A stretch of 64,000 nucleotides of DNA from Sulfurovum sp. (GTDB lineage Bacteria > Campylobacterota > Campylobacteria > Campylobacterales > Sulfurovaceae): positions 1-64,000 of the forward strand of contig JALWTA010000014.1 in NCBI GenBank assembly GCA_027082955.1, read 5' to 3'. Of this stretch, positions 405 through 20,947 are shown piece by piece. The first letter of the stretch is position 1; every line of letters begins with the position of its first letter. The notes under the pieces were generated by a model, which was not told the DNA's origin, did no database searches, and saw only the letters and a program-made list of their open reading frames with translations. Made by a program: the position numbers and the translations under genes.

Positions 405-689
405 ATGACCAAAGCAGAATTCGTAGAACTGGTACAGAAAAACGGTGAGTTTGAAAGCAAAGCAGCAGCAGAGAGAGCAGTAAAAGCTTTTATTGACTCA
501 GTAACTGAAGCATTGACAAAGAAAGAATCTGTTTCTTTGGTAGGGTTCGGTACTTTCTCTACTACTGAAGTTCCTGAAAAGTCAGGTACTGTACCTGGTA
601 CGAACAAAACATATACAAAAGCGGCACACACTGCACCAAAGTTCAAATTTGGTAAAACACTCAAAGATGCCGTGAGCGGAGCCAAATAA
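405..689 (+). CDS. hup: DNA-binding protein HU
   Basis: This is a 94-residue histone-like protein of the HU/IHF family. It bends and compacts DNA as a dimer. The family signature is clear: an N-terminal helical part (TKAEFVELVQK), the turn SLVGFGTF around residues 46-53, a beta arm after it, and the closing FKFGKTLKDAV. Length matches the usual 90-95 residues. The ATG at 405 has an AAGGAAG ribosome site. It is followed by a hairpin terminator and then by the end of the recombinase module on the other strand. Whether HU is the host flank or cargo of that module cannot be told from the sequence. HU and IHF subunits are hard to separate by eye, and a lone gene suggests HU. Confidence 0.93.
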   Translation: MTKAEFVELVQKNGEFESKAAAERAVKAFIDSVTEALTKKESVSLVGFGTFSTTEVPEKSGTVPGTNKTYTKAAHTAPKFKFGKTLKDAVSGAK

Positions 690-720
690 CAGTACATTAA
701 AGTACCGTTTTAAGGGGGTT

Positions 721-751
721 GAATTGTACTGATGAAAAGTACAATTCTTTT
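721..751. terminator. Hairpin terminator between HU and the recombinase module
   Basis: GAATTGTAC (721-729) and GTACAATTC (739-747) form a perfect 9-bp stem with a 9-base loop, followed by TTTT. It would end the HU transcript. On the other strand the stem is followed by AACCCCC rather than a T run, so it is weaker for the opposing operon that stops at 765. Confidence 0.6.
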
Positions 752-764
752 CCCAAAAATTCCC

Positions 765-1250
765 CTATAGATTATTGTTGATTGGATTTAATTCCTTCCG
801 CATATTCTGACGCAGATCTTTCTCATATATCACAGTCCGCAACTCCTCATTCTCGATCGACAGTTCATCCACTTTTTCAATAAGCCGTTTCTTTTGCTTA
901 TCAAGTTTTTTGATCTGCTCATCCCGTTTCCTGATCTCTTTTTTCGCTTCCAGCAGTTGATCCGCCAGATCGTTCTCTGATCTTGTGGACGTTACTTTTA
1001 TCGCTTCGTATTTTCCAATACCAAGCTCTATCATCAGTTCTTGTATGTGAGTAAGGTTCTTATCTCTGAACGATGTCTCACTTAAACCTTTTCCTTTTGG
1101 ATCAATTTCCTTTGTTTTCTGACTCATGTTTTTGATGCTTTTTATCTCGAAGGATTCATCCAGCAGTTTGGCCGCCTCCCTGATGAGATATTCCGTATGT
1201 TTTTTCCTTTCTGCAGCATTCTTGTTCAGGTTGGGATTACCTCTTGCCAT
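765..1250 (-). CDS. Small coiled-coil protein of the recombinase operon (TnpC-like)
   Basis: This 161-residue basic protein is the last gene of the recombinase operon. Its N-terminal part (MARGNPNLNKNAAER) resembles helical DNA-associated accessory proteins. From about residue 95 to 150 it is a long charged helix with a coiled-coil pattern (EAKKEIRKRDEQIKKLDKQK). By position and form it resembles TnpC of Tn554, a small helical protein that supports transposition, but the sequence link is unproven. The start at 1250 gives 5-base spacing from GGAGG. An ATG directly before it, at 1253, would be too close. The gene overlaps the upstream recombinase by 14 bases, which suggests coupled translation. 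Confidence 0.6.
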   Translation of the reverse strand: MARGNPNLNKNAAERKKHTEYLIREAAKLLDESFEIKSIKNMSQKTKEIDPKGKGLSETSFRDKNLTHIQELMIELGIGKYEAIKVTSTRSENDLADQLLEAKKEIRKRDEQIKKLDKQKKRLIEKVDELSIENEELRTVIYEKDLRQNMRKELNPINNNL

Positions 1251-2784
1251 CATTGCCTCCTTTTTTCGTATTGGTAACTTTGTTGTAAAGGGATGCGAAC
1301 AGTGTAGAGAGGTGGAAGGAGTCTTTCGCTTTGGCCTTGTCACCTATTTCAAGTTGTTTTTCTGTGATCTTGATATATCTGTCGGCCTGTTCGAGATAAT
1401 ATTCCTCAAGATCCTTGTCGGGCACCAGACTTTCGCATCCCAAACATTCGAAATGGTTCCCGCAGCCTGAAACATCAGGGCAGTAACCGAGATTGGATAT
1501 CTTGTGCGCCCTCGGGTTTTCCGACAGTTTCTTTTCAAAGATAACATCGATGCCGTTAATGATCTTTCCCTTGAATACATACCGATCCGACAATTTGTTT
1601 TCTGCCATCAAAACCTTTCTTTGTTCCTTTATCATAAAGGCTTCAGACGGTGCAGAGTATGAATCCAGGGAAGCATATGTACGGTGGTTCGCGAAGTGCT
1701 TTAACTGCGGGATCGTCCAGCCGTTCTCTGCTCTCATTGTAATAGCAGTTTTTTTAAAGTCCCTTGGTACGGCACGTTTTGAATCCGGAATAAGTAATTT
1801 ATGTTGAACTTTTTTAAGATATTGTCCTAGCCGTTGTGTCGATACTACATGTGCTATATGATTAATTGGATGCAAATGTGTTAATAAGAATCCTTTTTGG
1901 GTTGAGCTGTCTTGAAGTTGATTACTATTTTTCTGTTGTGTGATTATTAGATCAAAAAGCATTTTTTGCATAGGTTCTTTAAGATTGAGAAACTCTATAT
2001 TGTAGTCGATACCTTTGTCGCTTTTGGAGTTTTTTACTATGGCATGTTTGATCGTCGCTATTTCGTCAGACAATTGTTTGACGCAGTCAAGAGGGTAATT
2101 CACCGTGTCCTCCGGTCTCGTTCCGTAAAGTCTCATGATCCAGTATGCAACTCTAAAATGAAGAGGTGTTGTGTTCTGGCTGAAATGATCATCCAGCACC
2201 TCTAATGTTTGATCATCTATGACCTTATATTTACTGTCAGAGGATTTTCTGTTATATGGATTCTCTATGGCTTCAACCCCTTTGATATAAGAGATATAGG
2301 AATGTCGATTCATTAATTGGTGAAAACGTAGTGCCGCATCAAGCAGATGATGTTTATAGGCTTCTTTCAGGGGCTCTCCGTCTGATTTTCTTTGCTGCTC
2401 TATCCAAAAGCTATAATGACTGAAGGTTTTTTTGTCGACCTGAAGTAAATTCATGTTTTGGCTAGAAAGAAATACAAAATATTTATGTAAATTATTTACT
2501 ATGCTGTTATTTGTACCACGATTCAGCACTATGATCGCAAAAAGTTTTGCCAGGTGGATTCCAGTTTTCCCCATAGGTTTAAATTCTTTAAAGGCAATTC
2601 TGTCCGGGTGTGCTTTGTCAGACCTCTTGTCAAGGACCCACGAATCGGAATCAAAAGATGAAGTGGTGTAATTGGGCAGAGACGCGATAAGGCTGGCTTC
2701 CGCTACTTTTTCCTTTTTTGTCTGTTCAAGAATTCTTTGAAAAGAGATCTTTCTGATTAGTTTTGACTGTGCTGAAGTTGACAT
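1237..2784 (-). CDS. Tyrosine recombinase-like protein, third of the trio
   Basis: This 515-residue protein has the layout of a phage-integrase family recombinase. An N-terminal core-binding region is followed by a catalytic region with arginine box I (LYGTRPED, R223), a box II-like stretch (RDFKKT, 341-346), FANHRTYASLDSYS with H367, and nucleophile Y376. Box II is unusual: the standard HxxR reads RDFK, so K344 replaces the second arginine. After the catalytic domain comes a cysteine cluster C435, C441, C447, C450, a likely zinc-binding tail like those of Tn554-type TnpB proteins. The ATG overlaps the stop of the preceding gene as TGATG. It may be catalytically altered and act as a partner of the other two. 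Confidence 0.75.
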   Translation of the reverse strand: MSTSAQSKLIRKISFQRILEQTKKEKVAEASLIASLPNYTTSSFDSDSWVLDKRSDKAHPDRIAFKEFKPMGKTGIHLAKLFAIIVLNRGTNNSIVNNLHKYFVFLSSQNMNLLQVDKKTFSHYSFWIEQQRKSDGEPLKEAYKHHLLDAALRFHQLMNRHSYISYIKGVEAIENPYNRKSSDSKYKVIDDQTLEVLDDHFSQNTTPLHFRVAYWIMRLYGTRPEDTVNYPLDCVKQLSDEIATIKHAIVKNSKSDKGIDYNIEFLNLKEPMQKMLFDLIITQQKNSNQLQDSSTQKGFLLTHLHPINHIAHVVSTQRLGQYLKKVQHKLLIPDSKRAVPRDFKKTAITMRAENGWTIPQLKHFANHRTYASLDSYSAPSEAFMIKEQRKVLMAENKLSDRYVFKGKIINGIDVIFEKKLSENPRAHKISNLGYCPDVSGCGNHFECLGCESLVPDKDLEEYYLEQADRYIKITEKQLEIGDKAKAKDSFHLSTLFASLYNKVTNTKKGGNDGKR

Positions 2785-5186
2785 CAGTGGTCCTTTTTGG
2801 GTGATAATCTGTCCACAAGGGATTGGAATGAGTCCAGACGTTGTTTTTCCACGAGATATTCATGCCAGGTCTCGTACTCGCTTCTGGGTATACCTTCTGA
2901 CTCCAGGGTTCTGACCAGATCATCATATATCGCTTTTTGACTGTCCCTGATCTTGACCCAGTTACCCAGGTAGGGAGAGTCGGTATTGAGTCTGGCGCAA
3001 CTTGCGCAGCTCTCCGGACCCTGCAGCTTCCCACATTCCCCTACGACAGGGTGTCGGACGCAGTCGCCGTACTCCATCTGCCGTTTGTGTATATAGAGCT
3101 TGACGAATATATGTTCCCTCTCTTCGCGGCTGTAGCTGCCGAGCAGCTTCTTGTCGAAGGAGACCCTGAAGTGTTTTTTGAACAGTTCTGTATTGAGCTC
3201 TGCCATTTTTTTCTTTCGCACGAACGCATATGCTTTTTCAGAAGTGTGGTTGGTCAGCCATCCGAAGAATGCCTTGATCTCCTCCGGGGCATGCCCCTTT
3301 TCTACCATGGTGGTTGCGATCATCGCTCTCATTTGATAAGGGGTGTAGTGCCAGGTATCACTGTCGAGTTCGGCTTTGATATTGTATTTGTCGATCAGTA
3401 TATTGACATCCCTGATCAGTTCCTTGGAGGACGGGATATGGTATTTGACCACGTGCCGCCTGCGATACCTGCGGACAAAGATGGAATCATTCCCCGATTC
3501 CCTCCTGACCGCCCTGCTTATTTCCGCCTGTTCCCGAAAAGCCCGAATGACATCCTGTTCGTAAATGGGGACCTTTCGTACAGGCAGTTTCCCTTTCTTT
3601 CCGTAAGCGGCTTCCTGCTTTGATGCATATATGGTAAGAATATGGCAGTCTGTCCTTTGATCGAATTTCAGTGAATCTTCACGAATGGCGGCAAGTTCCG
3701 AAGGTCTGCATCCTGTTGCGCATTGGATCAGGAAAGCATTCTTTATTTCAGTGTCCAGTTCGTCTATACGCGCCCTTATCTGGAGGTAGACATCTTCAGG
3801 CATGGGGACTGTCGGATTGTCCGCCTCCTGGTCCTTGGCGGTTATGTCCGAAGAGACTGTTTTGTAGATCGATTTGATCTTTTCGGCATTTTTTTCTCTG
3901 TTCACTGTTTTGATGTCCGTTAAATATCTGTAAAAGGATGTTATCGGATTTTTCGCGCTGCGGAGGCCGATCCTTCTCTCCATCTTTGTCAGCCAGTTCA
4001 CAAGATCCTCTTCCGTGATATCGCCGGCATCGATATTGAATCTTTTGCGTCTATCTTTTACGGAACTGAAAAAATCTATCAGGGAAGAAGCAAAGCCTTT
4101 ATTGTTCGAGGCTCTGTACAATGCATATCTTCTAATGTCCCGGGAAACAGTGTCCTTCGATATGCTGCCAAGGTCCACTTGAAAACTTTTCCACTTTTTA
4201 TTTGTAATATAGCCAAGGTGATATTTCCGTAACTTCATGGCATCCAGACGACGGTTATAGATATTGCGATTGGATATCTGCAGGTTTTGATATTTGACCG
4301 CGAGCCTGACAAGCATCCGGTATGTTTCCGGAGCATTGGATTTTAGTTTTACCAGGAAGTTGCTGTCCTGGCTTATATGCTTTTGCAAAGCTCCGCTCAG
4401 GGAGATATGGCGGTTGTTGAGCATTTGTTCCCTGAGAGTTTTTTTGACGGACAGCTTCATAAGGTCGCGGTGAAACGCGAAGGCATACATCATAACGATC
4501 GACGTGCTTATGTTGAATTGGTCCGCAACGGCGGACAGTGGTCCCTTCCTGTTTAACTGTTCGCCTGTCTTCAGGATCAGTTCCTGTGTCTTTTTGACAC
4601 TTGCCTGAACGTGCAGGGAATGGGCGTCGACCGTTATGCCGATCCAGCCCGAACCATCGATATTGATGTGTGCATGATATTTTGACAACGGTGCGATCCT
4701 GACAGGCAGAGATCCGTCGCTCTTCCCGAAGACCATGATGTCGGATATCTGCTTCTGCATCTTGGGAGACACTCCCGTTGCTCCTTTGTCGAACTTATTG
4801 CGCAGATAATTGCCTTTGCCTTTATTCATTGTAAAGCCGTGATATTCAAAATATGTATATCTGTGTATCCAGTGCTTCGAGAAACAAAGATGTGCATGAT
4901 GCATGAGATATCTTCGTACGATCAGCGGATGTGCTTCCGCTGCCATTTCGAGGAGTATCCAAGTGATCTTTTCTAGCTCTGTATCTCTTTCTTTCCCGAA
5001 GATCTCTTCGGCTGCGTCCAATAGGGTCTTTCTTTTTGACCGTATATGCTTCAGGAACAGGTTCCAGTCATTTAATTGGAACGATGATTCTTTCAATATG
5101 TTTATACTGACCCTGTGCAGCAGGAATCTTTTCTGGTCAACTTCGATATAGCTTGAATAATTATTATTCCTGATATATTTAATCAC
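2784..5186 (-). CDS. Large tyrosine recombinase, second of the trio (TnpB-like)
   Basis: This protein of about 800 residues is much longer than a standard integrase. Residues 1-400 have no motif I can name. The catalytic domain follows, with box I ATGCRPSEL (R about 494), box II HYTPYQMRA (R about 620), GWLTNHTSEKAYAF with W about 643, and nucleophile Y about 652. A C-terminal cysteine set (709, 718, 727, 730) suggests a zinc finger. The start is not ATG. AGGAGG precedes TTG at 5189 by 3 bases and GTG at 5186 by 6, so GTG is preferred. The start overlaps the end of the first recombinase gene, consistent with coupled translation. Confidence 0.8.
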   Translation of the reverse strand: MIKYIRNNNYSSYIEVDQKRFLLHRVSINILKESSFQLNDWNLFLKHIRSKRKTLLDAAEEIFGKERDTELEKITWILLEMAAEAHPLIVRRYLMHHAHLCFSKHWIHRYTYFEYHGFTMNKGKGNYLRNKFDKGATGVSPKMQKQISDIMVFGKSDGSLPVRIAPLSKYHAHINIDGSGWIGITVDAHSLHVQASVKKTQELILKTGEQLNRKGPLSAVADQFNISTSIVMMYAFAFHRDLMKLSVKKTLREQMLNNRHISLSGALQKHISQDSNFLVKLKSNAPETYRMLVRLAVKYQNLQISNRNIYNRRLDAMKLRKYHLGYITNKKWKSFQVDLGSISKDTVSRDIRRYALYRASNNKGFASSLIDFFSSVKDRRKRFNIDAGDITEEDLVNWLTKMERRIGLRSAKNPITSFYRYLTDIKTVNREKNAEKIKSIYKTVSSDITAKDQEADNPTVPMPEDVYLQIRARIDELDTEIKNAFLIQCATGCRPSELAAIREDSLKFDQRTDCHILTIYASKQEAAYGKKGKLPVRKVPIYEQDVIRAFREQAEISRAVRRESGNDSIFVRRYRRRHVVKYHIPSSKELIRDVNILIDKYNIKAELDSDTWHYTPYQMRAMIATTMVEKGHAPEEIKAFFGWLTNHTSEKAYAFVRKKKMAELNTELFKKHFRVSFDKKLLGSYSREEREHIFVKLYIHKRQMEYGDCVRHPVVGECGKLQGPESCASCARLNTDSPYLGNWVKIRDSQKAIYDDLVRTLESEGIPRSEYETWHEYLVEKQRLDSFQSLVDRLSPKKDH

Positions 5187-6354
5187 CAAGTTCCTCCTGA
5201 AGTTTCAAGAGCTTTTCACTTAGTTCGGAAGCATGTTTTCTTGCAAAGTTTCTGGATATCTCCTCATTGTTGTGATCGATGTACGGCGCAATGGATTCGG
5301 GTGATCTCCATCCCATGATCTGTCTGATGATCTCATCACTCAGCTTCAGTTCCCCGCTGACCATTCCCCTGACAAGCTTTGTTGCCTTGTCCGATCTTCC
5401 GGAGTGCGTTCTTACATTCTCTGTTATGCCGGCCTTTCTTGCCGCAGTTTTCAGCGCACTGCGATAGGAAGATGCCGTATATGCGTCAAAAGCGATCTTT
5501 CCGTCTGTTTGTCTGGTGTTGACGAACAGGAAGTCATTGTGCTTTTTTGCTTTTATTTCGGCAGGGCTCCGCTCAAGCCGTATGTAGTTTTCAATGATCT
5601 TGACGACCTCGTCACCCAGCACAACAGTCCTTTTCCTTCCCCTTCCTGTCCCTTTCGAACGGCTCGGCCTGACCGTATTGTCTATTGGGCTGTAATCCCG
5701 AAGCTTGACGGAGAGGACCTCGTCGATCCGCATTCCGTGCAGTGTACACAGGAAGATCGCACGGTTTCGATAGTTTGAAAAATTGGTATAAATGGCTTTC
5801 ATCTCTTCATCGGTGTATTCCATAATGTATTCTTTTTTGGAAGTTTTGTATTTTGTGAGAAAGAGGTCTATCGTAGCGTCCGCAATTGTCTCTACGGCGT
5901 TCCACCGCAGGGTGAGGGCTGTCTTGTACTCGCTCAATGTATTGCTGTCCCATTTGCTGATCTGCAGAACACTGTGGTCTGAGAACTGCCACAAGAACTT
6001 GTAGAACTGTACGATCGTCGACTTGTGTTTTTGAATTGTCGCATACGTAACGTCCGGTCTGTCAATGATCTCACCGCTTTTTTGATCGAAATTTATCAGC
6101 TCCATCATGTATGCCTTTATATCCGAGTCGGTCGCTTCCCAATACTCGGTGTTCCTGTCAAGCAGGAAGTTGAAGAACCTGGTCAGCCTGTAACCGATGC
6201 TCTTTCCGTACCGTATGGAGTTCTTGGAGTGATTGGCGACGAACAGACTCGGATAGAGATCGGGGACATTCGGTCTGCAGACAAAATAGAAAGTGCTGAT
6301 GCCTCCCCTTTTATGTGTTTTCCTTCCTTCCCGGAGACGATACTTGTCTTTCAT
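5179..6354 (-). CDS. Tyrosine recombinase/integrase, first of the trio (TnpA-like)
   Basis: This 391-residue protein is a typical site-specific tyrosine recombinase. A SAM-like N-terminal core-binding domain covers about residues 30-140. The catalytic domain has box I LHGMRIDEVL (R209), lysine 235, box II RTHSGR (H317, R320), and GWRSPESIAPYIDH with W349 in place of the usual histidine and nucleophile Y358. The start at 6354 is chosen because AAAGGA lies 6 bases upstream; an in-frame ATG at 6390 has no such site. It is the promoter-proximal gene of the module and faces the S24 repressor across a control region. It should cut and rejoin DNA at the element's attachment sites. Confidence 0.88.
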   Translation of the reverse strand: MKDKYRLREGRKTHKRGGISTFYFVCRPNVPDLYPSLFVANHSKNSIRYGKSIGYRLTRFFNFLLDRNTEYWEATDSDIKAYMMELINFDQKSGEIIDRPDVTYATIQKHKSTIVQFYKFLWQFSDHSVLQISKWDSNTLSEYKTALTLRWNAVETIADATIDLFLTKYKTSKKEYIMEYTDEEMKAIYTNFSNYRNRAIFLCTLHGMRIDEVLSVKLRDYSPIDNTVRPSRSKGTGRGRKRTVVLGDEVVKIIENYIRLERSPAEIKAKKHNDFLFVNTRQTDGKIAFDAYTASSYRSALKTAARKAGITENVRTHSGRSDKATKLVRGMVSGELKLSDEIIRQIMGWRSPESIAPYIDHNNEEISRNFARKHASELSEKLLKLQEELGD

Positions 6355-6389
6355 GTGACGTCCTTTAACTTGTTTTTCAGAATGGATCA

Positions 6390-6571
6390 TTTACAAAAAG
6401 TGTAAAATCCAGATAAAACAGTGAGTTATTACAAAATTCCAATATGTATAAACCATATTTGATTGAAATATAACACAAAAATTGACACAGATATTCAATA
6501 ATCCACATATTGTGTATAATATTGTGTAACCTGTTGCACCTCTCATACTTCAATTATCCACAATTAGTGTA
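6390..6571. promoter_or_regulatory. Divergent control region with repeated operator-like sites
   Basis: Two related 15-mers lie in the same orientation: TCCACATATTGTGTA (6502-6516) and TCCACAATTAGTGTA (6557-6571). They are identical at 12 of 15 positions, are loosely palindromic and are 55 bp apart. A separate dyad TTTACA-N5-TGTAAA covers 6390-6406, just before the recombinase operon. A TATAAT at 6515-6520 touches the first site. The arrangement resembles a phage-type switch controlled by the adjacent S24 repressor. Binding is inferred. Confidence 0.5.
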
Positions 6572-6640
6572 CGAATTTTGCGAAGAAATTCATTTTTTGA
6601 TACAATTGACCGAACGACAACGAAACGGAGTACATACAAG

Positions 6641-7291
6641 ATGAATTTTGAAAAAGTTATGGAAAGGATGGCGGTAATTCTTGAGCAGCAGGGCAACAGC
6701 AAGGTATATGACAAAGATATCGCCAGCGCTCTGGGTATGACCTCTACGCAGTATTCCAATGCGAAATCCCGCAACAGCATTCCCTACGAAAGGATCGCAG
6801 CGTTCTGCGGCAGAAGAAAGATCAGTATCAACTGGATACTGTTCGATCAGAGCATCAGCATGCTAACGGACGAACACGAGGATATCTACCGGGTCAAACT
6901 GCTTAACAATATCAACGCTAGCGCCGGAGGCGGTGCTTTCAATGAGGACTATGAGGACTTCACCTATATTATGATCGACCCTTTGTACAGGGATCTGCTG
7001 GGTATCGGGAAGAACGATACGATCGAAGCGATCAGGGTCGTGGGCGATTCCATGGAGAACACGCTGAACGAGAACTCCATTGTTCTGGTAGACAGGAGAC
7101 AGACAGAGCTTGTAGACGGGAACATCTTTGTGGTCAATACGCCTGGCGGCGTGTTTATCAAGCGCATCGCCAAAAATCCGTCGGGTGGCATTAATCTGAT
7201 ATCAGACAACAGGAACTACGAAACAACTACGGTTGCTCCGGAGGACCTTCGTGTGATCGGTAGGGTCATCGGGGCGCTGGAGAAGATGTAA
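6641..7291 (+). CDS. S24/LexA-family HTH repressor (CI-like)
   Basis: This 216-residue regulator has an N-terminal helix-turn-helix (about residues 20-60, DKDIASALGMTSTQYSNAK) and a C-terminal S24 peptidase domain. The catalytic dyad is visible as S137 in VGDSMENTL and K174 in VFIKRI. An Ala-Gly at 95-96 (NASAGGGA) fits an autocleavage site. Such proteins are inactivated by RecA-stimulated self-cleavage after DNA damage. It is divergent from the recombinase operon and probably represses it. The ATG at 6641 is chosen because the preceding in-frame sequence does not look coding and GGAG lies 10 bases upstream. Homologues also occur as host regulators, so element ownership is inferred. Confidence 0.82.
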   Translation: MNFEKVMERMAVILEQQGNSKVYDKDIASALGMTSTQYSNAKSRNSIPYERIAAFCGRRKISINWILFDQSISMLTDEHEDIYRVKLLNNINASAGGGAFNEDYEDFTYIMIDPLYRDLLGIGKNDTIEAIRVVGDSMENTLNENSIVLVDRRQTELVDGNIFVVNTPGGVFIKRIAKNPSGGINLISDNRNYETTTVAPEDLRVIGRVIGALEKM

Positions 7292-7668: not shown

Positions 7669-8262
7669 ATGAATTCAGTAGATAAAAAAGCGTTAAAGAG
7701 AGAATCTATTATACAAACAGCCCTACAGCTTTTTTCAACAAACGGGTTTCACAAGACAACCATTCCGGATATCGCGTCAAAGCTTGGTATGAGTGTAGGC
7801 AACCTTTATAATTATTTCTCCTCTAAGGATCTGCTTGCTCAGGAGATTATTCGGTATACCTCTGAAGTGTTGGGTGAGAAGATAAGAGAGGTTAATATGC
7901 TTGATGTCAGTGCTGAGGAAAAGATACATAAGATTGTAGAGATCTACTTTTCGATGGCAAAAGAGAAGCCTGAGATGATCGAGTATTTTCTGCGTGTCTA
8001 TCTCTCCAACAGGGAAGTCTTCAGTGATGGCTGTGAGGGGATGGTCTGTGTATCCGGGTTTATCACAGAGATCATGATCTTTTTTGATGATGCGGTGAGC
8101 AGCGGTGAGTTACGAAATCAGGATTTCTTTTCAGCGTTTGGACTCTTCATGGGCTATCTGGGCGGTATGGTCTTTCTCAAGGGTGAAGGTGTGCTTCCCA
8201 AAGACATTGCCTACTATATAGATGATATCTCCCGAAATATCTACTATGCATTGAAGGCATGA
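7669..8262 (+). CDS. TetR/AcrR-family regulator, first gene of the sensor hydrogenase operon
   Basis: This 197-residue protein has the N-terminal TetR DNA-binding domain: RESIIQTALQLFSTNGFHKTT, then the recognition part IASKLGMSVGNLYNYFSSKDLL (about residues 35-56). The C-terminal ligand-binding half is all helical and not recognisable by eye. The stop at 8260-8262 is one base before the ATG of the hydrogenase small subunit, so the two are surely co-transcribed. It is the only TetR gene in the window. A palindrome of TetR-operator size occurs upstream of hydA and of the nickel permease. I infer that it controls those genes. No matching site lies before its own gene. Confidence 0.88.
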   Translation: MNSVDKKALKRESIIQTALQLFSTNGFHKTTIPDIASKLGMSVGNLYNYFSSKDLLAQEIIRYTSEVLGEKIREVNMLDVSAEEKIHKIVEIYFSMAKEKPEMIEYFLRVYLSNREVFSDGCEGMVCVSGFITEIMIFFDDAVSSGELRNQDFFSAFGLFMGYLGGMVFLKGEGVLPKDIAYYIDDISRNIYYALKA

Positions 8263-8263: not shown

Positions 8264-9166
8264 ATGGGGCAAGTGCAGCACAGCAAACCGAAACTGCTTT
8301 GGCTGCAGTCCATTACCTGTAACGGCAATACACACTCTTTTCTAAACCATCCTGATATCTTTTCTGTCTTTTCAGGTTTTGAAGTGGTACATCATCCGGT
8401 ACTTGAGTCTGAATATACTTTTCATGATCTTGCTGCCTTGAAAATCCCTTGTGATATATTGATCCTTGAGGGTTCATTTATAGAAAAAGGATTGACTAAA
8501 AACGGGGTAGAGGTCTCAAAGATGATCACCCATTACGGTAATGAAGCGTCACACATCATCACCGCAGGTACTTGCGCAACGTTTGGGGGGATTTTTAAAC
8601 AGAAAGACCCTGAACAGATCTCCGGTTTTTGTTTTGATATTGAGCAGCAGACTGAGCGCTATGAGAAGTTTGCCTCCAAGCTTATATCTCTGCCGGGTTG
8701 TCCCATACATCCAAGGTGGCTTGCATATGTACTGATGATGCTGAGCCAAGGTAAAAAAATAGCGATAGACAGACTGCATCGACCGGTTGAGCTCTATGGC
8801 TATACTGTCCATACCGGTTGTACGCGCAATGAATATTTCGAATGGAAGGTTGATACCAAAGGATATGGACTCAAAGAGGGGTGCCTCTTTTATGAACAGG
8901 GATGCCAAGGACCCTATACACGTGGCAGCTGCAATAAAATTCTTTGGAATGACACCAGTTCCAAAACACGTATTGGTACCCCCTGCTTTGGCTGTACCGA
9001 ACCACAGTATCCAAAGGACAGGCTTTTTGTGACACGAACCAATATGGGGATTCCTGCAACAATGCCACTGGGAATCCCAAGACGTGCCTATCTGACACTG
9101 ACCGGGGTGGTCAAGAGTTTCAAGATCAAGCGTTTTAGCCAAAGACTTTTGGAGTATGACCAATGA
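8264..9166 (+). CDS. Cytoplasmic [NiFe] hydrogenase small subunit, HupU/HupS-like (probable sensor)
   Basis: This 300-residue protein carries the iron-sulfur clusters of a group 2-type hydrogenase. It begins directly with the flavodoxin-like fold (KLLWLQSITC) and has no Tat signal, so it stays in the cytoplasm. Cluster ligands are visible: C19, GTCATFGG, LPGCPIHP, HTGCTRNE, GCLFYEQGC, RGSC, and GTPCFGCTEPQYP. The usual CxxC of the proximal cluster reads CNGN, with Asn22 for the second cysteine, as in cyanobacterial HupS. The gene follows tetR by one base and overlaps the large subunit as ATGA. With a partner lacking a maturation tail, a regulatory HupUV-type role is the best reading. A cytoplasmic uptake role remains possible. 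Confidence 0.85.
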   Translation: MGQVQHSKPKLLWLQSITCNGNTHSFLNHPDIFSVFSGFEVVHHPVLESEYTFHDLAALKIPCDILILEGSFIEKGLTKNGVEVSKMITHYGNEASHIITAGTCATFGGIFKQKDPEQISGFCFDIEQQTERYEKFASKLISLPGCPIHPRWLAYVLMMLSQGKKIAIDRLHRPVELYGYTVHTGCTRNEYFEWKVDTKGYGLKEGCLFYEQGCQGPYTRGSCNKILWNDTSSKTRIGTPCFGCTEPQYPKDRLFVTRTNMGIPATMPLGIPRRAYLTLTGVVKSFKIKRFSQRLLEYDQ

Positions 9167-10464
9167 AAAAAATAAAGATCAAAGAGCTCATCGAGAAGAT
9201 CGAAGGTGAAGCGGAACTTGATTTTACAATAGAGGATGGTCGTATTGAAGATGTGAAGATCAATTTCGGATTTTATCGTGGGATTGAGGAGATACTCCAA
9301 GGCAGAGATGCATGGGATGCGCTGGTAATCACACCCCGTGTATGCGGTATTTGCAACCATGCCCATCTCATTGCGGCAGTACGAGCTATAGAAGACGGCT
9401 ACCAAAATGCAGGTATCAATCTTTTACTCAGTGAAAAAGCAAAAAAGATCAGATCTTTTACGCTTGCATGTGAACTGATACAGAACCATATGAAATGGTT
9501 TTATATGACCATCGTTCCCCAGCTTGAAGCCTATCTGCAAATAGACAATAGACAAAACCATGCGCTTAAAGCAACCTATCTTTCCTCTACAGTCACAAAA
9601 GCGTTGGCAATCTTTGCAGGACAGTGGCCGCACTCATCCTATGCCATCCCTGGTGGTGTAAGCTGTGATCCGACACACCTTGACCTGATGCAGGCTGAAG
9701 CACTGATAGATGAGTGTATCCGTTTTGTCGAACAGGTACTCATTGGTATGGATATGGCACAGTATCTTGACATATCATCAGTAAGCCAACTACACGAGGT
9801 AGGGGGAGATCTTGGTCGTCTCATGCACCTCATTGGAAGTTCCGGCATGGCTACATTGGGACAAAGCTATGACCGTTTTATTGTTTTTGGCGAATCCTTG
9901 CTCTCTTCATCAGGCAAATCTATTGCTACAGCTGTTTCAAAAGTCGATCCGCGTTATGTGCAGGAGTCTGCGCAGGATGAGAGCATGGCAAAAGCAGTTA
10001 CCTATAAAAAGAGACTGTATGAGACCGGACCACTTGCAAGAGGCATGGTTGCTAAAAGACCCATCATCAAGAGTTTACATAAACGCTATAAAGATGCACT
10101 GCTTACACGTATATTTGCCAGAATGCATGAAGTATCTCTTTTGCTGACCGAAAGTAAGCGCCTGCTTAGAGAACTTGATTTAAATGAACCTTCTTGCACA
10201 CTGGACATTGACACACGTTGTGCTGACTTTGAGGGTACAGGTATTGTCGAAGCGGCTCGCGGCTCTCTCATTCACCAAACTGAGGTTTCAGGTGGACTTA
10301 TTCATCGCTATGAAATCATTACACCTACACAGTGGAATCTCTCACATGGCAGTGGAGATGAACATGGTATTGCAGTAGAAGCTATGATAGGTTCAAAGAG
10401 TATTCAAGAAGCTACCTTTATTTTCAGAACATTTGATGTGTGTTCTGTCTGTACAACACAATAA
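9163..10464 (+). CDS. Cytoplasmic [NiFe] hydrogenase large subunit, HupV/HupL-like (probable sensor)
   Basis: This 433-residue catalytic subunit has the N-terminal metal motif RVCGICNHAH (C61, C64) and the C-terminal motif DVCSVCTTQ (C427, C430). The chain ends at Q433, the position where other large subunits have the histidine preceding the cleaved peptide. No tail needs removal by a maturation protease, which is typical of regulatory hydrogenases. Valine follows Asp425 where most enzymes have proline. The fold between the motifs is conserved (GPLARGMVAKR, EAARGSLIHQTEVSGG). It forms a pair with the preceding small subunit. It probably binds H2 and reports to a regulator, most simply the co-encoded TetR protein; that link is inference. 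Confidence 0.85.
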   Translation: MKKIKIKELIEKIEGEAELDFTIEDGRIEDVKINFGFYRGIEEILQGRDAWDALVITPRVCGICNHAHLIAAVRAIEDGYQNAGINLLLSEKAKKIRSFTLACELIQNHMKWFYMTIVPQLEAYLQIDNRQNHALKATYLSSTVTKALAIFAGQWPHSSYAIPGGVSCDPTHLDLMQAEALIDECIRFVEQVLIGMDMAQYLDISSVSQLHEVGGDLGRLMHLIGSSGMATLGQSYDRFIVFGESLLSSSGKSIATAVSKVDPRYVQESAQDESMAKAVTYKKRLYETGPLARGMVAKRPIIKSLHKRYKDALLTRIFARMHEVSLLLTESKRLLRELDLNEPSCTLDIDTRCADFEGTGIVEAARGSLIHQTEVSGGLIHRYEIITPTQWNLSHGSGDEHGIAVEAMIGSKSIQEATFIFRTFDVCSVCTTQ

Positions 10465-10599: not shown

Positions 10600-10655
10600 G
10601 TTTGTGTTTTATACAAAAAACCAACGGATGAATCATCTATTATAAAGGAGTGAAC

Positions 10656-11897
10656 ATGGGTATGGATAAGCAAGAGTCAGTCAAGAAACTCTTTACCGCA
10701 CAAAGTGCCAAAGTGGATACCAACAGGGGTGACGCTTACTATGAAGCATTGTATGTAAAGTGTCAGGAGAGGCTTGATGCACTCAAAAAGTTAAGACCTC
10801 TTAACAATAGACGAGATTTTCTCTCTACTATAGAAGATGAAGGGCTCGAGAGGCGAGATTTCCTAAAATGGGCAAGTGCTACCACCGCAATGTTGATGTT
10901 ACCGGCATCGTTCACTCCTTTGGTTGCTGAAGCGGCAACACTAATGAACCGGGTACCGGTCATCTGGATAGAACTAAGTGATTGTGCGGGTAACTCTGAA
11001 GCTCTGTTGCGTTCAGACGGACCAAAGATCGATGAGATTATTCTTGATATCATCTCTTTGGAGTTCCATGAGACACTGCAGGCTGCTTCCGGTCATCAGG
11101 CTGAAAAACAGATGGAAGAAGCCATGGAGCACTTTAAGGGCAAATATCTTCTCTTTGTTGAAGGTGCCATACCTCTGGGAATGAATGGACAGTTTGGTAC
11201 AATCGGTGCAAAAGCCGAAACATTTGTCGATCATCTTCACAGAGCAGCAGAAGGTGCAGCTGCAGTCGTAGCTGTTGGAAGCTGTGCGACCTACGGCGGT
11301 ATCCCCGCTGCTGCACCAAACCCTACCGATGCAGTAGGTGTGATGGATGTGGTCAAAGGCAAACCGATTATCAATATTCCGGCGTGTCCTGCCAACCCAT
11401 CCAATATGGTAGGTGTTATTCTGCATTTTGTACTGACTGGGCAGATACCTGAACTTGATTCTCTGCTTAGACCTAAATTTGCCTTTGGGTACCGTATCCA
11501 CGACAACTGTGAAAGACGTGCGCATTTTGACGCAGGTGAGTATGTCGAAGAGTGGGGTGATGAGGGTGCCAAAAATAACTTCTGTCTCTACAAGATGGGA
11601 TGTAAAGGTCCTATGACCTTTAACAACTGTTCGATCATCCGCTACAACGAGGGGGTCAACTGGCCTATCGGTGTAGGGCGTGGCTGTATCGGGTGTAGTG
11701 AGCCGGATTTCTGGGATAAATATGCTTATGAAAGACCTATGGCAAATGCCAATATCAAGGCACCTACAGGCGGTGTGGAAAAAACTGTCGATCAATTTGG
11801 TTTGGGGCTTTTGACAGCAGCAGGTATCGGTATCGGTATACATGCAGCAGCAAGTGCCATCGCAGGAAAAAAAGAGAATCAGAAGGAGGAAGCGTAA
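10656..11897 (+). CDS. hydA: Group 1 [NiFe] uptake hydrogenase small subunit with Tat signal
   Basis: This 413-residue subunit passes electrons from the NiFe site to the cytochrome b subunit on the periplasmic face. A Tat motif RRDFLKW at 66-72 is followed by a hydrophobic stretch (about 73-91) and an AEA-type cleavage region. About 65 residues precede the motif, which is long, and a second RRDFL occurs at 52-56. Cluster ligands follow: DCAGN (C110, with Asn113 for the usual second cysteine), GSCATYGG, IPACPANP, IHDNCERR, GRGCIGCSEPDFW. A C-terminal hydrophobic helix (GLGLLTAAGIGIGIHAA) anchors it. AAGGAG lies 5 bases before the ATG at 10656. It heads hydABCD and is preceded by two operator-like palindromes. 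Confidence 0.95.
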   Translation: MGMDKQESVKKLFTAQSAKVDTNRGDAYYEALYVKCQERLDALKKLRPLNNRRDFLSTIEDEGLERRDFLKWASATTAMLMLPASFTPLVAEAATLMNRVPVIWIELSDCAGNSEALLRSDGPKIDEIILDIISLEFHETLQAASGHQAEKQMEEAMEHFKGKYLLFVEGAIPLGMNGQFGTIGAKAETFVDHLHRAAEGAAAVVAVGSCATYGGIPAAAPNPTDAVGVMDVVKGKPIINIPACPANPSNMVGVILHFVLTGQIPELDSLLRPKFAFGYRIHDNCERRAHFDAGEYVEEWGDEGAKNNFCLYKMGCKGPMTFNNCSIIRYNEGVNWPIGVGRGCIGCSEPDFWDKYAYERPMANANIKAPTGGVEKTVDQFGLGLLTAAGIGIGIHAAASAIAGKKENQKEEA

Positions 11898-13691
11898 ATG
11901 GGCAAGAAACATATTATTGTAGATCCAATCACACGGATCGAAGGACACCTGAGAATAGAGGCTGTGATAGATGAGAACAACAAGATTGTAGATGCCTGGA
12001 GCTCCTCTACCATGTTCAGAGGGATCGAGACGATCCTCAAAGGACGCGATCCGCGTGACTGTGGTCTGATGGCAATGCGTATCTGCGGTGTCTGTACAGG
12101 GACACACTACCAAAGAAGCATCGAAGCGGTTGAAGATGCATTTAAAATTACCATCCCAAAAAATGCACGTATCGTAAGGAACCTGATCCAGGGGTCACTC
12201 TATTTGCATGATCATCTGGTGCATTTTTATCATCTGCATGCACTTGACTTTGTCGATGTAGTTGCCGCAACCAAAGCTGATCCTGAAAAAACGGCAGAAG
12301 AAGCTGCCAAATGGGCACATGTAGCCGGTGTAGAGCCCTATATCGGAGGTGCTGGTGATTTTAAGATGATCCAAGACCGTATCATCAAGTTTGTCAAAGA
12401 GGGACGTCTGGGTATCTTTGGCAACGGCTACTGGGGCAACCCTCACTACAAGCTCACACCTGAACAGAATCTTATCGGTGTAGCGCATTACCTCAAAGCG
12501 CTTGATATTCAGCGTGAACTCTCCAAGATGCATGCAATCTTTGGAGGGAAGAGCCCACATCCGCAAAGTATAGTAGTTGGTGGGGTAACGTGTGTGCAGG
12601 ACATCAAAAACCCAGCAAGGATTGCACTCTTTAAAGAGTTGTTGACATTGGGAAGGGATTTTGTAAAACGTGCCTATCTTCCTGATATCTATATGGCTGG
12701 TACAATGTATGCCGATGAGGCGACTGATGGCAATGCTACTTTCCATGCATCCAGCCATAAAGGTGCTATGGGTAAAGCAGTTGGTGGCACAGGCGGCGGT
12801 ATTCTTAGTTTTATGAGTTATGGTGACTTTAGACTTGATGATACAGGATTCTATAAATCAGATCTTCTTTTCCCGAGCGGTTTGGTACTGGATGGAGATA
12901 TTTCAACGGTTCATGAGGTTGATCCAAATAAAATTTCTGAAGACGTCACCCACTCATGGTACAAAGGTACGGGTGCTCCTGAACATCCGTATGATGGTAC
13001 AACGATCCCTGAATATACAGGACTTGAGAAGAAAGAGGATGGCTATGCTTATCTGAAAACGGATGAGAAATACTCTTGGATCAAGTCACCACTTTATAAT
13101 GGTAAAAAGGTTGAGGTTGGGCCACTTGCTCGTATGGTAGTTGGTTATGTCAAAGGAGACAAGCGTATTAAAAAATATGTCGATAACTTCCTGACACGCG
13201 CTAACCTGCCCATAACAGTGCTCTTCTCAACAGTAGGAAGAACTGCGGCACGAGCTATTGAAACCGAATTGATGTCTGATGTAATGATGGAGTGGGTCGA
13301 TGAGTTGGCAGCCAATGCCGCTTCTGGAGACCTGAGTACTTGGACAGAGTTTGACTTTGATAAGGTTTCTGTTGATACCAAAGGTATGGGACTTGCCGAA
13401 GCACCAAGAGGATCTCTCGGGCACTGGGTCAAAATCAAAAACGGAAAGGTTGAAAACTATCAGGCTGTTGTACCGTCTACATGGAATGCCGGACCAAGAG
13501 GTCCAAACGGTGAAGTCGGTGCGTATGAAGGAGCGGTCATAGGTACAGTTGTAGCAGATCCGGAACAACCGCTTGAGATCATCCGCACAGTACACAGTTT
13601 CGATCCATGTATCGCATGTGCGGTGCATGTGGTAGATACCAAAGGTAAGGAGTTAGCTACATACAAAGTTGATCCTACCTGTGCATTCTAA
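11898..13691 (+). CDS. hydB: Group 1 [NiFe] uptake hydrogenase large subunit
   Basis: This 597-residue catalytic subunit holds the NiFe(CN)2CO centre and oxidises H2. The four metal cysteines are in RICGVCTGTH (C63, C66) and DPCIACAVH (C571, C574). A 20-residue tail starting VVDTKG follows the histidine and should be cut off by the HydD protease after nickel insertion. It has no signal peptide of its own and is carried across the membrane with HydA. The ATG follows the hydA stop directly, with AGGAGG upstream. Its length is normal for group 1 enzymes of Campylobacterota such as the Wolinella quinone-reducing hydrogenase. Confidence 0.97.
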   Translation: MGKKHIIVDPITRIEGHLRIEAVIDENNKIVDAWSSSTMFRGIETILKGRDPRDCGLMAMRICGVCTGTHYQRSIEAVEDAFKITIPKNARIVRNLIQGSLYLHDHLVHFYHLHALDFVDVVAATKADPEKTAEEAAKWAHVAGVEPYIGGAGDFKMIQDRIIKFVKEGRLGIFGNGYWGNPHYKLTPEQNLIGVAHYLKALDIQRELSKMHAIFGGKSPHPQSIVVGGVTCVQDIKNPARIALFKELLTLGRDFVKRAYLPDIYMAGTMYADEATDGNATFHASSHKGAMGKAVGGTGGGILSFMSYGDFRLDDTGFYKSDLLFPSGLVLDGDISTVHEVDPNKISEDVTHSWYKGTGAPEHPYDGTTIPEYTGLEKKEDGYAYLKTDEKYSWIKSPLYNGKKVEVGPLARMVVGYVKGDKRIKKYVDNFLTRANLPITVLFSTVGRTAARAIETELMSDVMMEWVDELAANAASGDLSTWTEFDFDKVSVDTKGMGLAEAPRGSLGHWVKIKNGKVENYQAVVPSTWNAGPRGPNGEVGAYEGAVIGTVVADPEQPLEIIRTVHSFDPCIACAVHVVDTKGKELATYKVDPTCAF

Positions 13692-13701
13692 GGAGGATGA
13701 T

Positions 13702-14439
13702 ATGGCAAAAGAAGGATATACCAAAGTCAAGCGTATGACACCTGCAATGCGCATTATCCATTGGGTCAATGTTGCCTCGATGGTTGTTGCCATTATTACA
13801 GGGCTTTATATCGCTGAACCCTATTATCAGACCTTGATTGCCGAACCGGCAGTTGACAAGTATGTGATGGCATGGAACAGATGGGGACACTTTATAGTAG
13901 CAATCATTTTTGATGTTACATCGATCATTGTTGCCTATCTTTACTTCTTCTCAAGGTTTGAGAAGCCTTATAAAAAGATCTTGCCTACAGGCAAAAACAT
14001 CAAGGAGTTTGGTGAGGTATTTATGAATCTTATTACGCTTAATAGGCGTAAAAACTTCGATTCAAGCCATAGTGACAGTTTTAACACAGTCTATTTTACA
14101 ATTTTTCATCTCTTGTTGGCATGGATGCTCTTTACTGGGCTTCAGCTCTATGTACATGGGTTAGAGTCGGGAATGAGCAGTATTGGAAGTTGGTGGCCGG
14201 CGATGCTGCATCTTGTAACTGATTGGACGATTCCAGTGAGCCATGCTATTGTTGGTGGCGGTCCGACAGCAACGATCATGGATGTTCGTATCGTGCATCA
14301 TATGACAATGTGGCTCATTATTACATGGGTAGTTTTCCATATCTACTATCAGGTCTGGAGAACGATTTTCTGGCAAGAGGGAGATATTGCCATTGTTGTC
14401 GGTGGTACCAAGTTTGTCAAAACAGATGAGAAGCAATAG
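13702..14439 (+). CDS. hydC: Hydrogenase cytochrome b subunit
   Basis: This 245-residue membrane protein binds two b hemes and passes electrons from HydA to quinone. Four or more hydrophobic segments are evident: IIHWVNVASMVVAIITGLYI, HFIVAIIFDVTSIIVAYLYF, FHLLLAWMLFTGLQLYV, MTMWLIITWVVFHIYY. Histidines in HW, HF, FH and HH-M-T-M-W contexts fit heme ligation. AGGAGG is 5 bases before the ATG at 13702. It is the HupC/HyaC/HydC family and sits third in hydABCD. Confidence 0.94.
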   Translation: MAKEGYTKVKRMTPAMRIIHWVNVASMVVAIITGLYIAEPYYQTLIAEPAVDKYVMAWNRWGHFIVAIIFDVTSIIVAYLYFFSRFEKPYKKILPTGKNIKEFGEVFMNLITLNRRKNFDSSHSDSFNTVYFTIFHLLLAWMLFTGLQLYVHGLESGMSSIGSWWPAMLHLVTDWTIPVSHAIVGGGPTATIMDVRIVHHMTMWLIITWVVFHIYYQVWRTIFWQEGDIAIVVGGTKFVKTDEKQ

Positions 14440-14441
14440 CA

Positions 14442-14993
14442 GTGAACGATAAAAAGATTGCCCTGATAGGCATCGGTAACATTATGTTCCATGATGAGGG
14501 ACTGGGTGCCTATCTGGTCAAATATATCGAAGAGAATTTTGAGATCCCTCCCCAACTTAGTGTGGTTGAAGGCGGAACACTTGGGTTTAAACTGATGACA
14601 TACTATCAAGAGTATGACAAGATCATTGTAGTAGGCACCGGTTCGCATGACGGTAAGGTAGGAGAGATCCATAGTGAGAGTGCCGAAGAGGTTATGGCAA
14701 AAAGTCCCATCCGAAAAACCGCCAATGAGGTGGAGATTACTATGATGATAGAGATATGCTCGTTTCATGAAGATATGGGCGAGGTGCAATTGATTACAAT
14801 GGTACCGGAAGATATCATTGAAGTCAAAAACGGTCTGACCGATCGTACTTTAGAGTATATGCCAAACCTGGTAGATGTTGTTTTAAACGAACTAAAACGC
14901 TGTGGATTAACTCTGCGTCCCAAAGCAAAACAAGTAAGTTTTGAAGAGATTATTGGAGTATATGCCAACCCCAAAGCACCTGTTATGGCATAA
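14442..14993 (+). CDS. hydD: Hydrogenase maturation protease
   Basis: This 183-residue endopeptidase of the HyaD/HybD family removes the C-terminal peptide of the large subunit after nickel loading. The N-terminal signature is clear (IGIGNIMFHDEGLGAYLVKYI), with the acidic residue pair expected to contact nickel. The start is GTG at 14442, two bases after hydC, and no strong ribosome site is visible, which suggests coupling. HydB is the only large subunit in the window with a cleavable tail, so it is the likely substrate. A second protease of this family lies at 27073-27591. Confidence 0.92.
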   Translation: MNDKKIALIGIGNIMFHDEGLGAYLVKYIEENFEIPPQLSVVEGGTLGFKLMTYYQEYDKIIVVGTGSHDGKVGEIHSESAEEVMAKSPIRKTANEVEITMMIEICSFHEDMGEVQLITMVPEDIIEVKNGLTDRTLEYMPNLVDVVLNELKRCGLTLRPKAKQVSFEEIIGVYANPKAPVMA

Positions 14994-15128: not shown

Positions 15129-17054
15129 ATGTATTTTATCGTTGAACTTGAATTTAACACATCCAAAAGCTATATTGCCCAACTGATCAGAGCCGAATCT
15201 ATGAAAGAGGAGATTGGCATCTCCGTAATACAAAGCAGCGGAAAAATCATACTGGTATGCCCCCGTGATGATGAGAGAGTCGAAGGGTTTCTCCTTGGAT
15301 TGGAGAGTCTTTTACCTGCTTCTATATTCTTAGGCAAAAGCAGACACTATTTTAGTGGTAGTAAACCTACGTTGCTTCCCACCGGCGATGTAGGTTTACC
15401 TCACAACATCGCACCGTGTCCCAACTGTCAAAAAGAGATGTTCGATGTCAGCTCACGGCGTTACTACTACCCATTTACTTCATGTAATGCATGCGGTTCA
15501 CAGCATCCGTTCTTGTCACAATATCCATACAGACGTGAAAATTCACTTATGAAGTTTTTTGCACCATGTGACACATGCCAGAAGGAGATGAAGGAGAATG
15601 CTTTTAGACTTGACTATCCACTCATCTCCTGTATCGACTGCGGCATACCGCTGCGTATGATGGACAAAGATAGTGAGCATACCGCCAATGACAAAGGAGC
15701 CTATAGGCAGCTTTTTGAAGTAAGTGCCAGAGCGATCGCTGCAGGGGAGAGTGTGCTGATCAAAACGATGCATGGATACCGAAAGTTCTTTCTGCCCAAA
15801 GAGAGAGAGGTACCCTCAAATGCGATCTTGATGATCGCAGATGCCAACAGACTCAATACCCATCTGATGATGATCCCTCAGGAGTTCAATGCCCTTTTGA
15901 GTATCGAACGACCGCTTTTGCGTGTCGCTACAAAGAGTGAGAGTCTCAAAGCACTCTTTGGCAGCAGTGTCAATGTGAAGTATGCCGATGAGGGGATGAG
16001 TATGCTGCTTGCCAAGGAGTTGATGACATGTGGACTTGATTATGTGGCATACATAGCGTGTGATGCCAATGAAGAGGCTGACTTTATGGTAGATTTCGAT
16101 CTTCCTATCACCCCGCAGCGAGATACAAAACTCTTTATCAATCAAGATACCAGATACTTTGTAACCGGTGAACGTATAGTCTATCCATGTCATGTCAAGA
16201 ACTCAAAGGATGTTGTCACGGTGGCACACCATTTGGCTGCGGTCAAGGCGGGTGAACGTACGATCATCGATACATTGGAGCATTTCGATACCGTCCAGAC
16301 AAGCCAGGTACGTGTCTTAGAAGATGAGCCTTTTCAGAGCGGTCACAGCAATGAGTTGCGTTTCCCGCAGTGGCGTGCCTCAATGCTCTCCGTACTTGCC
16401 GAACACGGCAAACTGGGAGAGAAAGCGATCGGGGTGCATTTTGACGGGCAGCTCTACTTTCTCTACTACAACGGCAAAGAGGTGATCAATGCGGTGCCTC
16501 CTATCCCTTTTGAGTCTGACAACCTCTGGGAGAAGATAGGCAGACTCAGAGAAGGCTCAGACAGACTGGTAGAGAACTACAAGAAGCGCTATCCCGAAAC
16601 TTGGGAGAGACTCGATCGTCTTGCAGGGGATATAGATATCTTCAAAGTCACTGCCATCACGCTTGGACTTGAGGATGAGAGTCTGGAGGGCATATCCGCT
16701 GCCGCACTCAGCTTTCTTGGCAAAGGGGGACTGCAGATCGATACACGGGTCAAAGACAACCGTTTTGACAACTATGCATTTCTTTCAAGCATCATGAGCT
16801 ATCAGCTGGGTGATGTGGAGAGCAGCTATCTTTGCTACAGCATTTATGAATCATTTGGGGATTATATCGGCGAGATTGTACCTCAGATATCAGAAAAGGT
16901 AGGTACACGTACGCTGACCCTTAGTGGAGAGACCTTCGCCAATCAGGCGCTCTATGCTAGAATACAACGAACAGTAGGACAGTATAAGCCTCTGATGAAC
17001 CAAAACTTCCCTATCGGCAAGGAGAATGCAGCACATGGAGCCCTCTACTTATAA
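15129..17054 (+). CDS. hydE: Hydrogenase maturation factor HydE (Campylobacterales type, HypF-related)
   Basis: This 641-residue protein lies between hydD and hypF. It contains two HypF-type zinc motifs, CPNCQKEM...SCNACG (about residues 98-122) and CDTCQKEM...SCIDCG (about 150-173), each CxxC-x18-CxxC. The N-terminal acylphosphatase domain of HypF is not recognisable. The C-terminal half resembles the Kae1-like part only weakly. In Helicobacter pylori, HydE from the hyd operon is needed for hydrogenase activity. It is unrelated to the radical-SAM HydE of [FeFe] hydrogenases, and no CxxxCxxC motif is present. AGGAAG lies 3 bases before the ATG. Confidence 0.78.
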   Translation: MYFIVELEFNTSKSYIAQLIRAESMKEEIGISVIQSSGKIILVCPRDDERVEGFLLGLESLLPASIFLGKSRHYFSGSKPTLLPTGDVGLPHNIAPCPNCQKEMFDVSSRRYYYPFTSCNACGSQHPFLSQYPYRRENSLMKFFAPCDTCQKEMKENAFRLDYPLISCIDCGIPLRMMDKDSEHTANDKGAYRQLFEVSARAIAAGESVLIKTMHGYRKFFLPKEREVPSNAILMIADANRLNTHLMMIPQEFNALLSIERPLLRVATKSESLKALFGSSVNVKYADEGMSMLLAKELMTCGLDYVAYIACDANEEADFMVDFDLPITPQRDTKLFINQDTRYFVTGERIVYPCHVKNSKDVVTVAHHLAAVKAGERTIIDTLEHFDTVQTSQVRVLEDEPFQSGHSNELRFPQWRASMLSVLAEHGKLGEKAIGVHFDGQLYFLYYNGKEVINAVPPIPFESDNLWEKIGRLREGSDRLVENYKKRYPETWERLDRLAGDIDIFKVTAITLGLEDESLEGISAAALSFLGKGGLQIDTRVKDNRFDNYAFLSSIMSYQLGDVESSYLCYSIYESFGDYIGEIVPQISEKVGTRTLTLSGETFANQALYARIQRTVGQYKPLMNQNFPIGKENAAHGALYL

Positions 17055-20305: not shown

Positions 20306-20947
20306 ATGGAACTCTCTTTGCTGCTTATTTTCTGGTATGGTGTGCTGCATGCGTTTGGTCCTGATCATCTTACTGCAATTGCAGACTTTTCTATCGGAAA
20401 GAACAAATCAAAAACACTGCTTATTACTGTGCTTTTTGCTATTGGACACGGTTTGAGTCTCTTTGTTTTTGCCAAAGTGCTTGAAGCCTTTCCGCTTTCT
20501 CATCATATTTTGGAATGGGGTGATCTTATCTCTGCAACGGTCATTATCGGTATGGGGGTGTACTTGCTTTATATGGTTGCAACAGATCGTATCCACCTTA
20601 ATAAACACATGCATGAGGGCAAAGAGCATGTCCATATCTGGTTTGGGAAATCACACAAACATGAGGATGCAGTTGTAGAGAGCTCGTCGTTTACCATGGG
20701 ACTTCTCATGGGTGCAGGTGGTGTAAGAGGAATGCTCATTACCCTTGGTGCTGTAGGAAGCGGACATGTTGATCTTAGTATGGTTTCCGCATTTACTGCA
20801 GGTGTGATGCTTATTTTTGTCAGTTTTGGTTTTGTCATTCTCTATATCAATGAACATCTACTTGATTCGCTGCAGAATGTCAGACGCGTATTTGCTACAG
20901 CAGGCGTTATTTCACTCATTGTAGGCACCGATATTTTATTAGGATAG
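20306..20947 (+). CDS. NicO/RcnA-type nickel permease
   Basis: This 213-residue membrane protein has about six hydrophobic segments. Its signature HAFGPDHLTAI near residue 15 is the HxxxxDH motif of the NicO (HupE/RcnA-like) nickel and cobalt transporters. A histidine-rich cytoplasmic loop follows (HLNKHMHEGKEHVHIW, then SHKHEDA). It probably imports nickel for the hydrogenase, as its gene leads the hypBCDEXA genes. Direction cannot be read from sequence, and some relatives are exporters. An operator-like palindrome lies directly upstream. Confidence 0.82.
   Translation: MELSLLLIFWYGVLHAFGPDHLTAIADFSIGKNKSKTLLITVLFAIGHGLSLFVFAKVLEAFPLSHHILEWGDLISATVIIGMGVYLLYMVATDRIHLNKHMHEGKEHVHIWFGKSHKHEDAVVESSSFTMGLLMGAGGVRGMLITLGAVGSGHVDLSMVSAFTAGVMLIFVSFGFVILYINEHLLDSLQNVRRVFATAGVISLIVGTDILLG

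Follow-up and report, generated by a model that had tools for sequence, protein, structure and literature searches.

A GInt-like integrative element with probable [NiFe]-hydrogenase cargo at the HU gene of a Sulfurovum genome

GInts, SEs, Tn554 and RITs are kept apart in the literature on recombinase systems (PMC10214605). GInts are defined by the genes ginABCD, whose products, three recombinases plus one small protein, are each required for an element to excise and integrate (Bardaji et al., 2017, PMC5385486), and this four-gene plan already bears a name, GInt/Tn6571 (PMC5385486, PMC10121019). Most reports of GInts come from Pseudomonadota, and examples are also reported for Bacteroidetes, Firmicutes and Verrucomicrobia; resistance, virulence and defence genes are their reported cargo, and the position of ginA at the boundary, with the cargo after ginD, is treated as characteristic by Bardaji et al. 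(PMC5385486).

Here, we describe a related locus in a stretch of 64,000 nucleotides (the window) of a Sulfurovum sp. draft genome, on a contig that starts at window position 1 in an assembly that is 95.6% complete. Our main reading, to which we give a probability of about 0.82, is that window positions 660-28066 form a ~27.4-kb integrative element of GInt-like type made of a four-gene operon and hydrogenase cargo. The features on which this reading is built are listed below by window position.

405..689, plus strand: gene for an HU-family DNA-binding protein, the integration target (PF00216, E 3.9e-24)
660..673, plus strand: attL core CTCAAAGATGCCGT within the HU 3' end; the same core lies at the HU 3' ends beside ginD in all homologous loci
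690..764, no strand: conserved left end of the element, with the motif CATTAAAG and an inverted repeat AATTGTACT..AGTACAATT (722-746)
765..1250, minus strand: ginD-like gene, 161 aa from an internal ATG (192 aa from an upstream GTG), coiled coil, homologues aligned
1237..2784, minus strand: ginC-like gene, 515 aa, putative degenerate tyrosine-recombinase-like protein with a C-terminal Cys cluster
2784..5189, minus strand: ginB-like gene, 801 aa, TTG start, tyrosine recombinase with an N-terminal extension and a C-terminal Cys cluster (PF00589; GinB 93.8%)
5179..6390, minus strand: ginA-like gene, 403 aa (391 aa from the ATG at 6354), tyrosine recombinase (PF00589; best GInt match GinA 97.5%)
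6578..7291, plus strand: S24/LexA-CI-like repressor, divergent from ginA (PF00717, E 2.9e-19)
7669..8262, plus strand: TetR-family regulator (PF00440), at the head of the hydrogenase cluster
8264..10464, plus strand: HupUV-like second [NiFe]-hydrogenase pair, small and large subunit
10650..14993, plus strand: uptake [NiFe] hydrogenase, with small subunit, large subunit, cytochrome b and maturation endopeptidase (TIGR00391, NF033181, TIGR02125, TIGR00140)
15129..19323, plus strand: HypF-like protein (641 aa) and HypF (765 aa) (TIGR00143)
20306..26315, plus strand: NicO-like nickel transporter, HypB, HypC, HypD, HypE, HypX-like protein and HypA (Pfam)
26326..27591, both strands: DUF695/RraB protein (plus) and HycI-type maturation protease (27073-27591, minus)
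28019..28052, plus strand: conserved right end of the element, AATTGTACTATTACTCTTGATTTTTATAGGTATT; same motif in the right ends of the elements in the related genomes G344, G322 and G235
28053..28079, plus strand: attR, the displaced native HU 3' end, with the core CTCAAAGATGCGGT and then codons up to TAA
28390..29186, plus strand: DUF5718-like gene, chromosomal flank, which comes after HU in relatives with an empty site

Homologous modules provide the frame in which this locus can be read. Five of them, one a fragment, occupy the 3' end of HU in further genomes of Campylobacterales, namely G344 and G322 (same genus), G235 (same order), Sulfuricurvum (L082, also G408) and G301 (the fragment). 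Since four other genomes contain these four genes in identical order, with about 49-66% identity, the module is not a chance assembly of genes, and HU abuts ginD in every homologous locus. The cargo comprises type I restriction genes in G344; in G322 it includes the candidate defence gene PDC-S06 together with the gene for a large NTPase (1569 aa), and in G235 a radical-SAM gene, with an apparent nickel/cobalt exporter gene, recognized by eye, near the right end. At the HU site of G344, a further element, now decayed, follows in tandem (L071:480-777); what is left of it, past the attR of the first element, is a left end and a remnant of ginD. In G235 (L007:7455-14155), ginB is split by a 5.5-kb insert that carries genes for an IS1595-like transposase and a DNA methylase, both assigned by eye, and for a DUF6996/6997 protein. 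Finally, a 17-bp match to the left end of the element, with one mismatch, was observed in G349 (L036, about 1996), ~110 bp past an HU gene without module, and is possibly a scar.

The two ends of the window copy were placed by comparison with these loci and with empty sites. In the window copy, the element supplies the HU codons past the core, which keeps the reading frame of HU open. The left-end sequence is kept in seven attL sequences and missing from empty sites. At both element ends, CTYAAAGAYGCNGT forms imperfect direct repeats within the 10-17 bp range of GInts. By our own estimate, which assumes equal base frequencies, the 17-position core pattern is expected to yield ~0.002 perfect matches per 64 kb on both strands, and the flanking motif gives further weight to the attR at 28053; the displaced HU 3' end and the right-end motif found there therefore delimit an element that spans about 660-28066. 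The final ~0.5 kb is AT-rich, with a GC content of 0.34 at 27501-28000 versus about 0.47 in the cargo. Many Sulfurovum genomes lack the module and have, after HU, the flank gene of 28390..29186, for which DUF5718 is a tentative name not derived from a profile match. The HU gene had been considered as cargo and was rejected as such once the empty sites showed HU without the module. The displaced HU 3' end lies on the side of the DUF5718-like gene in G322, and the complete attR signature, a AATTGTACTATTACTCTTGATTTTTATAGGTATT-type motif followed by a displaced HU 3' end, is shared by the window, G344, G322 and G235; no right end was found for the Sulfuricurvum and G301 elements. The contig itself starts and ends with the same 125-bp repeat in opposite orientation (window 1-125; G000:C14:84501-84625), also seen in several relatives and probably the end of an insertion sequence that broke the assembly.

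Adjacent genes of the module share 1-14 bases of overlap. Matches to Phage_integrase (PF00589) were obtained for the 403-aa (E 1.3e-16) and 801-aa (E 6.8e-11) proteins, hereafter A and B. Assigned by eye, the motif residues are R209, H317xxR320, W349 and Y358 in A, and R495, Y618xxR621, W644 and Y654 in B. No Pfam or NCBIfam model scored above cut-off for the 515-aa (C) and 161-aa (D) proteins. C contains a conserved TRPEDT motif and an NHRTY...Y box, and a weak match to Phage_int_SAM_5 (E 0.024) was obtained in two of four homologues; together with its place in the module, this points, on weaker evidence, to a recombinase-like protein. The AlphaFold model of C has a pLDDT of 40, and no match to C was found in the PDB. 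By-eye assignment suggests that C keeps the candidate residues R223 and Y376 and has R341xxK344 in place of HxxR, whereas the defect reported for GinC of GInts is a missing first Arg. Both Cys clusters, C710/H713/C719/C728/C731 in B and C435/C441/H444/C447/C450 in C, are invariant in all homologues aligned.

A first-pass annotation, made from the window alone, had described four overlapping genes with three different tyrosine recombinases. Its gene sizes hold (391/403, 801, 515 and 161 codons, minus strand, window 765-6390), as do the coiled coil of the 161-residue protein and the C-terminal cysteine clusters of two members; two of the recombinases were recovered by PF00589, and the 515-aa third is the less firmly based. 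The suggestion that the module moves accessory or defence genes agrees with the differing cargo of the homologous loci. Its boundaries of 765-6354 capture the module but not the element, which runs to about 28.07 kb, and the comparison of occupied and empty sites that it had proposed, with ends and cargo mapped, gave the HU 3' end as target, attL at 660 and attR at 28053.

Behind the module, the window copy carries as cargo a [NiFe]-hydrogenase system that is close to self-contained. Besides the two hydrogenases, it contains a maturation set of hypA, B, C, D, E and F together with HypX-like (a formyltransferase joined to an enoyl-CoA hydratase), NicO-like, HyaD and HycI proteins, and no other hydrogenase of the same group was found in the genome at its completeness of 95.6%. 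An entire energy metabolism thus looks like the cargo of this element. The 641-aa HypF-like protein (window 15129-17054) precedes the full HypF. Between ginA and the hydrogenase genes, the S24 repressor, which probably starts at the ATG at 6641, might control ginABCD or be cargo; none of the other homologous loci has a divergent S24 repressor beside ginA. Stretches homologous to the region of this repressor occur twice elsewhere in G225.

In the mechanism that we propose, the predicted catalytic tyrosine recombinases A and B, the recombinase-like protein C with its apparently altered catalytic motif and the small coiled-coil protein D would act as a four-gene operon, with all four proteins likely needed. 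The 14-bp core in a circular form of the element would recombine with the same core (CTYAAAGAYGCNGT) at the 3' end of the HU coding sequence. Insertion would keep the HU frame intact through replacement terminal codons brought by the element, and the native 3' end of HU would be displaced to the opposite end of the element and become attR there. Excision would presumably yield a circle. D or C may bind the AATTGTACT repeats at the ends, and expression of ginABCD may be controlled by the divergent S24 repressor.

The extent of the element is the point on which a quite different account could be given. A small element of about 7 kb, made of ginABCD and the S24 repressor, would leave the hydrogenase cluster as an old chromosomal neighbour of HU, and G341 speaks for it: in this genome, TetR and a related cluster, whose uptake hydrogenase is a different one, come immediately after HU, while on a separate contig the gene immediately before the DUF5718-like gene is hypA-like; gin genes are absent and no att relic was seen. 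Hydrogenase genes can therefore occupy the HU site without a visible element, and we take the arrangement in G341 to be a derivative from which the module was lost, with an independent history as a possible alternative. Nevertheless, no HU-like att sequence occurs between 6390 and 7900, and an element that stops right behind the S24 gene was rejected on this ground; the sole attR, with a right-end motif common to other elements, lies at 28053, past the hydrogenase genes. Most relatives, moreover, have HU beside the DUF5718-like gene and the hydrogenase elsewhere. Across other Sulfurovum genomes, the TetR-hydrogenase cluster occupies several different neighbourhoods; G342, with a TetR that shares 96% identity with the window protein, has an empty HU site and carries the cluster elsewhere. 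Taken together, we regard the small element as very unlikely.

Given a 27.4-kb element, its present activity and its affiliation can each be doubted. Its genes could persist in a relic that has lost recombination, as would fit the presence of the large recombinase in only 3 of 78 genus genomes, the interrupted ginB of G235 and the decayed copy in G344, but in the window the four genes are open, both ends are conserved and the active-site motifs of A and B, as assigned by eye, appear intact, so that we find a relic improbable. It is likewise doubtful, though less strongly so, that the element is an ordinary if divergent GInt of the Tn6571 family with no feature of its own: gene order, insertion at a specific site in the 3' end of a gene, direct repeats that are short and imperfect, an AT-rich far end and variable cargo would all suit such a view, against which stand an operon flipped relative to the target, with ginD beside HU in all loci, a larger B, a smaller C and a D without detectable similarity.

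Whether these loci make up a distinct Campylobacterota family, with its operon flipped with respect to GInts and a fixed HU target, that moves whole energy-metabolism modules, here a complete system for hydrogen oxidation, along with defence systems, is in our estimate an even bet. If they do, hydrogen use would be a transferable trait in Sulfurovum. The element offers a testable route for the relocation of hydrogenase clusters in this genus, and the flipped operon and conserved ends of a second lineage provide a comparison to determine which parts of the four-protein system are essential. Within a partial coverage of the literature, we found no paper that describes HU as the place where such elements integrate, or a hydrogenase among their cargo.

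The known recombinase systems differ from the module in several respects. The Tn554 family (TnpA, TnpB and TnpC) has two recombinases only, and an extra recombinase-like gene is present here. B has a match (93.1%) in the TnpB-like recombinase of a module on a Nostoc plasmid; this module also carries a DUF6262 gene that we take to be TnpC-like, and the 161-aa protein did not match DUF6262. A matches GmtY of the GMT systems partially (E 4.9e-6), with 26 bits against a cut-off of 340, and among the GMT models of NCBIfam none scored above cut-off and no other match was seen. RITs also have three adjacent tyrosine recombinases (PMC10214605), but these are proteins of 315-410 aa that all possess the catalytic tyrosine, bounded by 34-bp terminal inverted repeats and with no fourth gene described, in contrast to the 391, 801 and 515 aa and the altered third protein found here. 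SEs, the strand-biased circularizing integrative elements, likewise have four core genes, of which one encodes a recombinase-fold protein without the full motif and one a small auxiliary protein; however, in their order intA-tfp-intB-srap the degenerate gene comes second rather than third, and a profile comparison of the four module proteins with the SE-like four-gene module of pAQU1, an SE carrier (PMC10214605), gave no match. The earlier view that the module belongs to neither Tn554, RIT nor GMT is thus borne out by the number of recombinases, the RIT sizes and the GmtY score.

GInts come closest. The references compared were three E. coli GInts at the ssb site and seven GInts from plasmids, and the final profile comparison was built on nine GInts, with reversed-sequence controls at or below 0.6%. 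A matched GinA (97.5%), B matched GinB (93.8% over 288 columns), C matched GinC through its cysteine cluster only (56%), and D had no detectable similarity to GInt profiles; the homology to all four proteins that marks GInts is therefore clear for A and B, limited to the Cys cluster in C and absent for D. Profiles built on three GInts had given the order A-C-B-D, which was rejected as the nine-GInt profiles and the reversed controls favour A-B-C-D. BLAST-level similarity to GInts was absent in protein searches of a plasmid collection, where the window proteins gave one weak Nostoc match, and a search of viral contigs with the same proteins gave none. The prediction of a distinct family, to be refuted by full-length matches to a named four-gene family, accordingly fares in two ways: the architecture has a named counterpart in GInt/Tn6571, which the annotation had not mentioned, and the sequences do not match over their full lengths.

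From these profiles, the module is a remote relative of GInts with the GInt gene order. Both have three proteins of tyrosine-recombinase type, which for C is based on weak evidence, followed in the same order by one small protein, and both insert at the 3' end of a gene, have short and imperfect direct repeats and an AT-rich far end, and carry diverse cargo that includes defence genes. Unlike in GInts, ginD adjoins attL and HU, and the cargo lies on the ginA side (window, G344, G322, G235 and Sulfuricurvum): in 7 of the 10 GInt references, an ssb gene lies upstream of ginA and the operon points away from that gene, whereas in all loci of the present family the operon reads towards HU. GinB has 801-807 aa here versus 487-546 in GInts, GinC 511-516 versus 630-705, and the target is HU instead of ssb or an ABC transporter gene; the Campylobacterota hosts and the hydrogenase cargo also differ. 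Because of its flipped operon and the remote similarity of its proteins, we describe the element as GInt-like in its working and leave it outside GInt membership. It is a new Campylobacterota variant of GInt-like elements, with a cargo that is metabolic and unusual.
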